A stretch of DNA of 46,428 nucleotides, from the NCBI GenBank assembly GCA_025055295.1, contig JANWWW010000005.1, forward strand, positions 1 to 46,428, given 5' to 3'. Source of the DNA: Deltaproteobacteria bacterium (GTDB taxonomy: Bacteria; Bdellovibrionota_C; UBA2361; JANWWW01). Shown here piece after piece: positions 32,357 to 35,917 of the stretch; positions within the stretch are counted from its first letter, which is position 1, and each line of letters begins with the position of its first letter. The notes under the pieces were generated by a model. That model was not told where the DNA came from. It made no database searches and saw only the letters and a list, made by a program, of their open reading frames with translations. Made by a program: the position numbers and the translations under genes.

Positions 32357-32472
32357 GTCGCGGAGAATATCTGGCCTTTTACTTGTGTCTGTTATGAAAG
32401 CTCAGCCTATCGTAACTTGAAAAAACAATTGATTTATTTAAAAATCTAAAAAAGCTGATTTAATAAAGATAG

Positions 32473-32631
32473 ATTAGAGGGAAAATCATTAAAAACCCGC
32501 TTAAAAAAATTGGTGTCCTGTTTTTTATATTTTTTGCATCGTTGACCGGTTTTTTAACGGCAGTTACAAAATTTTTTCCCAAAATACACAACTTCCACAC
32601 GTTGTCAAATAGCACAGCGTTTAACCGTTGA
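32473..32631 (+). pseudogene. Startless membrane-protein-like frame
   Basis: 52 codons open between TAG (32470) and TGA (32629). The product has a basic start followed by a membrane-like segment (NPLKKIGVLFFIFFASLTGF) and a polar tail. AGAGGG lies just before ATC-ATT codons, so only a rare non-ATG start could be used. It could be a decayed small membrane protein or chance. I recognise no family. Confidence 0.25.
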
Positions 32632-33282
32632 CCGCCATTCTCGTATAACACACCAAAGCTTGAAAGTCCTCTAAAAGATTGTTCCTAAAATAACGTTATA
32701 AACCTCTTTACTCTTGACATTGAAAACTACCCTGAAAACCCCTGTTTTCCTGGACTACTTGCCCCTTAATCCACTTCTTTGTAAAGTCTTCGCTTTATTG
32801 ATTTTCATAAAGACCAAAAACAACTCCAAAACTTCCCTTATTTTTCTACCTCTGAGTTTACTCGTTACCGTTTAGATTTTGTTACTTTAAGTCGGTGGGC
32901 ACTCACAAATTCCACTGTAATCCATGTACTATCTTGGGACATTAACCCCACTTGTCTGCTTGCCGATGATTAATTTTAATCTTAATTTTTTTTTTGATAT
33001 CTTCAAAAAAGTTAATATAAACCGACTTGCTACGTATAGCGCCAAATACTTGGCTGTGTCCCTGTTACCCCAAATAGTGTTTGACATTTCAACCATCTCT
33101 GGCACCAGTTTTTCAACGGTCTTCCGGATTACTTTTTACTAATTTTAATACTTTACTAATTGATATTGCCTGGGTTTTCTTACAAATATCAAAGCAATTA
33201 ACGGCTTCGGTTAGATTGCCCTAGGGATTGAGATTATTTTGCTATCGTTCAATTACAATTTTTTTTGAAATTGATTATCTTC

Positions 33283-33295
33283 TGTAAATATTACA
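33283..33295. promoter_or_regulatory. Inverted repeat upstream of the Rrf2 gene
   Basis: TGTAA-ATA-TTACA is a perfect dyad about 90 bases before the Rrf2-type gene. It could be an operator for it; this is inference only. Confidence 0.25.
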
Positions 33296-33348
33296 TAATT
33301 TTTCTGCGCATATTTTGGGTGAAACGGGAGAGCTTTTGTTGCCAAGGT

Positions 33349-33378
33349 TTGTTCAAAAACTTGTGTAGTTTTTATAAT
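33349..33378 (+). promoter_or_regulatory. Promoter of the Rrf2-type gene, leaderless
   Basis: TTGTTC, 18 bases, then consensus TATAAT, which ends eight bases before the GTG at 33387. There is no room for a ribosome binding site in the predicted transcript. Confidence 0.55.
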
Positions 33379-33386
33379 TAACAGTA

Positions 33387-33827
33387 GTGTTTACCAAGCG
33401 GTTTGAGCTTGCAATTCTTGCATGCTTCGAGTTGGCACGATCGACGCGAACCGTGTCAGCCTCAAAAATATGCGAGTGGCTTGGAATAAGCTTGGATTTT
33501 GGCCACCAGATACTTTACAAGTTAAAAAAATCAGGTCTTATCCAGACAGAAAGAGGATCAAAAGGCGGAATAAAGCTAGCTCGAGACCCATCATCTATCA
33601 CGCTTCTCGATATTCTTATCGCAATTGAGCCAGAGGCTCTTAAACTGTGTTGTGAAAAAAGGGAAATATTTAATTTCTGTGTGAAAGACAACGAGATTTG
33701 CAGACTCAGAAACTTTTTTTACTCGACGTTCAAAAAAATTGAAAAGGAGCTTACTATTACCATTAAAGATTTTTTGGAAGACGGTTTGTTTTGGCCCCGG
33801 GAAAAAAAACGCCAAAAAACTTTATAA
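33387..33827 (+). CDS. Rrf2-family transcription regulator (IscR/NsrR-like, Cys-containing)
   Basis: 146 residues starting at GTG. The N-terminal winged helix has the family layout (KICEWLGISLDFGHQILYKL). It is followed by the wing and signature GLIQTERGSKGGIKLAR at 50-66 and ITLLDILIAIE at 71-81. After these come four cysteines, C88, C89, C98 and C105, where IscR, NsrR and RsrR carry their Fe-S ligands (three Cys plus a fourth ligand). A redox-, NO- or iron-responsive cluster is therefore plausible. Spacing differs from IscR. It is followed after 57 bases by the nicotianamine-synthase-like gene, with an inverted repeat between them, so that gene is the obvious candidate target. Confidence 0.82.
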   Translation: MFTKRFELAILACFELARSTRTVSASKICEWLGISLDFGHQILYKLKKSGLIQTERGSKGGIKLARDPSSITLLDILIAIEPEALKLCCEKREIFNFCVKDNEICRLRNFFYSTFKKIEKELTITIKDFLEDGLFWPREKKRQKTL

Positions 33828-33855
33828 TATGTCTTGTTTTTGATCTTCTCGTTGT

Positions 33856-33876
33856 TGCAAGATACTTGAACTTGCA
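33856..33876. promoter_or_regulatory. Inverted repeat before the nicotianamine-synthase-like gene
   Basis: TGCAAG-9-CTTGCA is a perfect 6-base inverted repeat that ends eight bases before the ATG at 33885. A nested CAAG-ATA-CTTG shares its left arm. It is a candidate operator for the adjacent Rrf2-type regulator, or an mRNA hairpin over the start region. Confidence 0.35.
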
Positions 33877-33884
33877 GCGTTTCT

Positions 33885-34655
33885 ATGAAGACGAATCACA
33901 AATTACTAGAACTTGCGTACACGATTTTGTCTCTGAAATGTCTCTATCCAGATGACTTCGTCAATAGCGTCTTTCAGCGGTTTGTTTCAGCTGTTCTTGA
34001 GACAAAGTCTGACACTTTTCAGATTACACCGTGTGATCTTTGCAAGCTTAGAAAAAGATGCGCAGTTGCAGAGAAAATGCTTGAAATTGACTGGGCAAAC
34101 CGAGTACGAAAATCGGTTTCCCCAAAAAAAAGTCTTTTAAGTTTTCCGTATTATGACAATTACTTATCTCTTGCTTCTTTTGAAATAGGATTGATAAAAA
34201 ACTTTAAAAAGGCTTCGAAAATCATATTTGTCGGCTCAGGACCTTTGCCTTTATCCGGAATTCTGTTAGCAAAAAGCGGTTACGAAGTTTGGCTAATGGA
34301 CCGTTGCCCTTTCGCCTGCTTCCTTGCTGAGAAGCTGTTAACTAAACTTGGAATGATAAAACGTTGTAAAGTTTTGCAGCAGGACGCTTTTAGGTTCTCA
34401 AATTACTCAGATTTCCCAATAATCATACTCGGAGCTTTGGTTGGTCAAGACGAAAAAGAGAAAAACAAACTGTTACAGTCGATACTTTCAAACACTCTCA
34501 AAGGAAGCCTTATTCTTGCAAGAAGCACTTGGGGTGCAAGACGTGTATTTTATCCCGTGGTAAACACGGAGTGGTGTAAGCCATGCGATTTTATTGAAGA
34601 ATTTCGACCAAAAGATCCAAAACTGGTGAACTCTTGCGTGGCATGCATTGTTTAA
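33885..34655 (+). CDS. Nicotianamine synthase-like enzyme, cysteine-rich
   Basis: 256 residues. The core matches nicotianamine synthases and the staphylopine enzyme CntL, which transfer aminocarboxypropyl groups from SAM to build metal chelators. FPYYDNYLSL at 87-96 resembles the family's PYY-x-NY block. IIFVGSGPLPLSGILLA at 113-129 is the SAM-binding signature. ILGALVGQDEKEKNKLL and LARSTWGARRVFYPVV (211-226) are the other family blocks. Unusual cysteines flank the core: C50-x2-C53-x5-C59, C231-x2-C234 and C251-x2-C254, suggesting bound metal or an Fe-S cluster. No opine dehydrogenase, histidine racemase or transporter is adjacent. The Rrf2 gene is upstream and a TerC-type gene is convergent. 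Family fair; product unknown. Confidence 0.7.
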   Translation: MKTNHKLLELAYTILSLKCLYPDDFVNSVFQRFVSAVLETKSDTFQITPCDLCKLRKRCAVAEKMLEIDWANRVRKSVSPKKSLLSFPYYDNYLSLASFEIGLIKNFKKASKIIFVGSGPLPLSGILLAKSGYEVWLMDRCPFACFLAEKLLTKLGMIKRCKVLQQDAFRFSNYSDFPIIILGALVGQDEKEKNKLLQSILSNTLKGSLILARSTWGARRVFYPVVNTEWCKPCDFIEEFRPKDPKLVNSCVACIV

Positions 34656-35491: not shown

Positions 35492-35917
35492 CTAAGCAAC
35501 TGTTTCAGTCAATTGATCAGAGAACAAATACTCGGTTTTTATTTGAACAGAGGATGATAGAGTTTTCTTAACTGGACAACTTTCAGCCACTCTTATCAAT
35601 TCCTCTTTAATATACTCAAGTGCTACAGGGAAAAACACTTTCAAATTTATTGCTTTAATCTCTCCTTCAGGACCTTTTTGGTATGTGCATTCAAATTTTA
35701 TGTTTTCGAATGATACGTTTAATTTCTTTTCCAGATAAATCGCAACAACAGCCAGCACACAAAGCCCAACCGAGGCGGAGAACACATCACGAGGGTTAGG
35801 GTACTCACCAAGCCCTCCCCACTGCTTATCGACATCACAAAAATTCAGGCAATCGTTTTTTATGCAATAAACTATTCTTTTGTCCTTTGATAACCACCCA
35901 TGAAGCACTTTTTCCAT
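35492..35917 (-). CDS. OsmC/Ohr-family protein
   Basis: 141 residues. The first redox block is GGLGEYPNPRDVFSASVGLCVL with C53. The second is VAESCPVKKTL with C114. These are the two cysteines used by OsmC/Ohr enzymes to reduce organic hydroperoxides with a dithiol partner. The length is typical. The gene lies between the M16C peptidase (53 bases) and terC-like (6 bases). OsmC versus YhfA-like subgroup cannot be decided by eye. Both redox Cys are present, so activity is plausible. Confidence 0.85.
   Translation of the reverse strand: MEKVLHGWLSKDKRIVYCIKNDCLNFCDVDKQWGGLGEYPNPRDVFSASVGLCVLAVVAIYLEKKLNVSFENIKFECTYQKGPEGEIKAINLKVFFPVALEYIKEELIRVAESCPVKKTLSSSVQIKTEYLFSDQLTETVA

Follow-up and report, generated by a model that had tools for sequence, protein, structure and literature searches.

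Nicotianamine synthases and Rrf2 regulators

Nicotianamine is a known metal chelator of plants and fungi. The bacterial relatives of nicotianamine synthase (NAS) studied in the literature that was found make opine metallophores. The plant enzyme AtNAS1 requires E77, Y106, E73 and the block 206-VGMD-209 for its activity, and its C69 was singled out as conserved in plants (PMC10248798). In the thermonicotianamine synthase MtNAS (PDB 3FPE), Glu81, which is accompanied by Tyr107, is taken as catalytic from the structures of the E81Q mutant, and CntL is an aminobutanoyl transferase of the staphylopine type. On the side of regulation, the closest described proteins are RirA, IscR and the Rrf2 proteins linked to SUF genes.

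The locus described here is located in a window of 46,428 nucleotides, the whole stretch of DNA that was analysed, which comes from a draft genome (85% complete) of a little-known bacterial phylum. It consists of an Rrf2 gene followed by a NAS homologue. The AtNAS1 sequence used for the alignment matches PMC10248798 at all positions checked (C69, E73, E77, Y106, VGMD and TRGCMFMPCNCS). With this sequence, C69, E73, E77, Y106 and VGMD of AtNAS1 align with C59, E63, E67, Y93 and VGQD of the window enzyme, the V, G and D of the block being shared and M208 replaced by Q, and the identity is 31% over 249 residues. The window enzyme differs from AtNAS1 in being bacterial and beside an Rrf2 gene, in the absence of the plant C-terminal autoinhibitory tail and in the presence of three CxxC pairs. 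It shares with MtNAS the fold and the pair of catalytic residues, and with CntL the superfamily and fold, although neither the CntL model nor the opine dehydrogenase and transporter genes fit this locus. The regulator has the Rrf2 domain and the three cysteines behind the DNA-binding domain of RirA, IscR and the SUF-linked proteins; its target here, in contrast, appears to be the NAS gene.

Arrangement of the locus

Both genes are found where the original prediction had placed them. The first (33387..33827, plus strand, GTG start) encodes an Rrf2-family transcription regulator of 146 amino acids, and the second (33885..34655, plus strand) the plant-type NAS homologue with the three CxxC pairs, of 256 amino acids. 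They are on the same strand, separated by a 57-bp gap, and 3' of NAS no further gene occurs on the plus strand before the opposite-strand genes. A search of the window with Rfam returned a single tRNA and no RNA element upstream of the genes. Between nusG and rrf2 there is a stretch of about 1 kb (32357-33386; 34% G+C) without a convincing gene, and in this window rplK and rplA do not come after nusG.

The gene that adjoins NAS on the opposite strand is terC, itself beside an OsmC gene (35492-35917, minus strand), whose product is an OsmC-like protein of 141 amino acids with six cysteines. TerC had been proposed as part of the system. Neither TerC nor OsmC is present at any homologue locus, and both were rejected as partners.

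The NAS gene was predicted to stand alone, and it does: no opine dehydrogenase gene is found among its neighbours and no transporter gene alongside it. The search of the whole genome with the PF10100 profile gave no match, and the control genomes likewise gave none; with a genome 85% complete, missing partners are weak evidence. The further suggestion that this absence is out of the ordinary did not hold, as stand-alone genes are ordinary among plant-type NAS loci. The plant-type NAS of Halocatena stands alone, without opine dehydrogenase, and in a Paceibacterota MAG (L012:4970-8777) and an uncultured bacterium (L014:5702-8783) a divergent Fur-type gene is followed by a gene for a cobW-domain GTPase and then by NAS, a cluster that on its gene content is read as a metal-regulated operon of plant-type NAS. 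Both cases support the participation of stand-alone NAS in metal homeostasis. These two clusters resemble the window locus in having NAS without opine dehydrogenase beside a metal-type regulator, and differ from it in that the regulator is of the Fur type, that the GTPase is present and that their NAS, about 30% identical to that of the window, is without CxxC pairs. A locus outside the phylum (L006:1219-3296), where a staphylopine-type dehydrogenase (PF10100, 283.6 bits) comes after a NAS-like gene, is probably devoted to an opine metallophore.

The explanation preferred here, to which we give slightly better than an even chance, is that the two genes constitute an iron- or Fe-S-responsive operon in which a plant-type NAS would make nicotianamine as a metal chelator under the control of an Fe-S Rrf2 repressor. 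The enzyme would condense the aminobutyrate moieties of three SAM into nicotianamine, with release of methylthioadenosine, and the product would bind Fe, Zn or Ni within the cell, or serve in uptake after export. Repression by the cluster-bearing Rrf2 would be lifted when iron or clusters are short. Counted against this explanation are the branch of the window enzyme, which is the longest in the tree, the change of VGMD to VGQD, the lack of an Rrf2-NAS pairing in the homologues and the lack of a regulon motif. A stand-alone bacterial NAS of the plant type behind the only Rrf2- or Fur-type regulator found in its genome would provide a small system for studying the use of nicotianamine by bacteria, and would allow one to ask whether Fe-S status controls nicotianamine.

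The Rrf2 regulator and its pairing with NAS

The product of gene 1 matches the Pfam Rrf2 domain with 86.5 bits, and its four cysteines (88, 89, 98 and 105) are located after the DNA-binding domain, as the original prediction stated. The columns of C88/C89, C98 and C105 are common to 13 aligned Rrf2 proteins of the phylum, with a spacing that varies by one or two residues, and these cysteines are probably the Fe-S ligands, a prediction made from the alignment. Three of the aligned relatives (L106, L107 and L112) adjoin suf genes, of SUF Fe-S assembly. The pattern of three cysteines in the phylum together with the suf neighbours supports the placing of the window Rrf2 in the Fe-S-sensing type, by relation to RirA, IscR and NsrR, as had been proposed for it. 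Its scores against the corresponding equivalog models are below the cut-offs, with 49.4 bits for IscR, 39.1 for RirA and 44.4 for NsrR versus 207.6, 193 and 182, respectively. Another Rrf2 protein (L118), from the same-family genome G001, is without the three-cysteine pattern. Relatives of the regulator are present in 43 of 46 genomes of the phylum; in the window genome, 85% complete, it is the sole Rrf2 match, and no Fur was found there by a search that gave matches in the control genomes.

The suf genes of this genome lie elsewhere, without the dyad discussed below. Of them, sufB has no suf neighbour; sufC and sufD occur on a different contig, together with a Rieske-type gene (L121, L122; contigs 73, 56).

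The inverted repeat TGCAAG-N9-CTTGCA, a possible operator, is present exactly as predicted at 33856..33876, 8 bp ahead of the start codon of NAS. Its reading as a distinctive operator is not supported. When 57-bp pieces of the window are drawn at random, about 16% contain a perfect 6-bp dyad whose loop measures 3-15 nt, and the value is about 4% when the rrf2-NAS gap is itself shuffled by mononucleotides; at a frequency so near chance, the dyad by itself is poor evidence for an operator. It was also tried as a regulon motif and rejected: a genome scan that allowed up to three mismatches gave one other place, equal to the reversed control. The dyad is not repeated at other genes, and no regulon motif was found in the genome scan.

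The neighbourhoods of the homologues bear on whether the two genes work together. Conservation of the Rrf2 neighbour, which the original prediction had proposed to look for, was not seen: no homologue has an adjacent Rrf2, and the only one in these neighbourhoods, that of L071, is over 5 kb distant. In the same-family genome G001 the relative of the regulator, 47% identical, adjoins a flavin-reductase gene, without NAS. It is conceivable, although on balance improbable, that Rrf2 and NAS are accidental neighbours, the regulator controlling Fe-S assembly elsewhere and NAS having been acquired and inserted behind it. The restriction of the pairing to the window genome, the presence of NAS in 3 of the 46 genomes of the phylum and the SUF genes beside the three relatives agree with an accident of this kind, whereas the common strand, the short gap and the lack of any further gene on that strand until the opposite-strand genes argue against it. 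Moreover, Rrf2 genes often regulate the adjacent gene. The search of the literature returned no paper on NAS with Rrf2. As far as is known, the Rrf2-NAS pairing and the three CxxC pairs are new, and both are so far confined to one genome.

Family and type of the enzyme

The product of gene 2 belongs to the nicotianamine synthase family, as profile, fold and catalytic residues indicate. The PF03059 profile, set beforehand as the test of the predicted membership, gave 133.2 bits against a cut-off of 27.1 and covered positions 11-267 of 276, nearly its full length, and the predicted blocks VGSGPLPLSG, ALVG and PYYDNY are all present. Among solved structures the best match is MtNAS (phmmer versus PDB, E=1.5e-11), CntL reaching only about 0.3. 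The AlphaFold model, built with 39 aligned sequences, has a pLDDT of 95.1 and a pTM of 0.92, and in a Foldseek comparison with the PDB it found MtNAS first, with a TM score of 0.83, and CntL next, with 0.55-0.75. Against the CntL equivalog of NCBIfam the score was 10.9 bits, for a cut-off of 350. The catalytic Glu and Tyr of MtNAS (E81/Y107) and AtNAS1 (E77/Y106) are kept as E67 and Y93, the former being the residue that aligns with the mutated E81 of MtNAS.

A scan of genome contigs with the window enzyme returned 80 loci, which are the basis of the homologue alignment, and in them no homologue exceeds about 35% identity. The alignment splits into an archaeal MtNAS-like group, a CntL-like group and a third, plant-type group, the last with members from Actinomycetota, Myxococcota, Chloroflexota, Paceibacterota, Halocatena and others. 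At position 59 the archaeal rows have Y or R and the CntL-like rows L, and both groups are without the three residues (VGx) that follow the A-L-V/A block. The plant-type rows mostly combine C59 (replaced by S in L014 and L038) with E63, E67 and a block that reads VGx or AGx, so that the combination of C59 and VG is the mark of this group among the homologues. The window enzyme has the full set (C59, E63, E67 and VGQD), with one substitution in the features of AtNAS1 that were compared (E73, the VGMD block and C69). Its PF03059 score of 133 bits is below the 138-182 of the other plant-type members and above the 94 of the archaeal type and the 75 of the CntL type. In the tree of homologues it has the longest branch, 2.13, and the tree does not fix its exact position, so that the assignment rests on the residue signature. 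By this signature the window NAS is of the plant, fungal and actinobacterial type, the one that would convert three SAM into nicotianamine, and not a CntL or an archaeal NAS.

The original prediction had also considered the use of the fold for another SAM transfer, which the nicotianamine-forming signature makes less likely. In its most explicit form the enzyme would be a divergent NAS-fold aminobutanoyl transferase that has a different starter (Glu, His, or else a peptide or cofactor) and yields the product of a single or double transfer, not nicotianamine. MtNAS and CntL do use other starters (PMC10248798), and the window sequence is very divergent, with VGQD for VGMD; the combination of E63, C59 and VGx, however, is missing in the MtNAS- and CntL-type rows, and a starter of this kind is considered unlikely. 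An azetidine-2-carboxylate synthase, a reading derived from PMC11794875, is not favoured, since MtNAS is the top Foldseek match and the NAS-specific residues are present.

Relatives of the window NAS were not found in viral contigs, and the sole one on plasmids is that of Halocatena marina, with 32% identity.

Cysteines of the enzyme

In the translation, the cysteines of the window NAS are at positions 50, 53, 59, 231, 234, 251 and 254. The segment CDLCKLRKRCAVAEKMLE (34032..34085, plus strand), placed by the model and the alignments in the long N-terminal helix, contains C50-x2-C53 followed by the conserved C59, E63 and the catalytic E67, and the pairs C231/C234 and C251/C254 (34575..34646, plus strand) are around the last two strands of the sheet. 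In the model the helix spans residues 49-76, with the C50/C53 pair at its start, and the strands residues 235-240 and 250-255. The prediction had counted all seven cysteines as foreign to the family. For the three CxxC pairs this is correct, while C59, on the alignment, is the conserved plant-type residue that corresponds to C69 of AtNAS1 and not an extra cysteine. The pairs occur in none of the roughly 80 homologues, so that the predicted conservation of these six cysteines in relatives failed, and the cysteine content of 4.3% compares with 1.29 ± 0.51% in the homologues. Probably the pairs make up a metal (Zn or Fe-S) or redox site that is particular to this lineage and was added to an otherwise ordinary NAS.

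A bound Zn or Fe-S cluster might then change the activity of the enzyme and act as a control at the protein level on top of Rrf2, which is compatible with the preferred two-gene operon. Such gating is doubtful: the three CxxC pairs in a single protein and its cysteine content speak for it, but no close homologue was found in which conservation of the cysteines could show, and some further genes predicted in the window exceed 4% Cys as well, so that a drift towards cysteine is possible. Plant class I NAS has a cysteine-containing C-terminal autoinhibitory tail, for which control by metal has been speculated (PMC10248798). The fuller version, in which a bacterial NAS with its own metal or Fe-S site would have its chelator synthesis controlled jointly by the enzyme-bound metal and an Rrf2 repressor that senses Fe-S, is improbable. 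If the CxxC site is functional, the enzyme would be a case of metal feedback on NAS.

The sole other CxxC among the homologues is in L060, at a non-equivalent position. Together with L003:1195-2016, L060 constitutes a second, very different NAS-like branch, from Acidobacteriaceae and from a genome of the same class as that of the window (G003), in which Phe replaces the catalytic Tyr.
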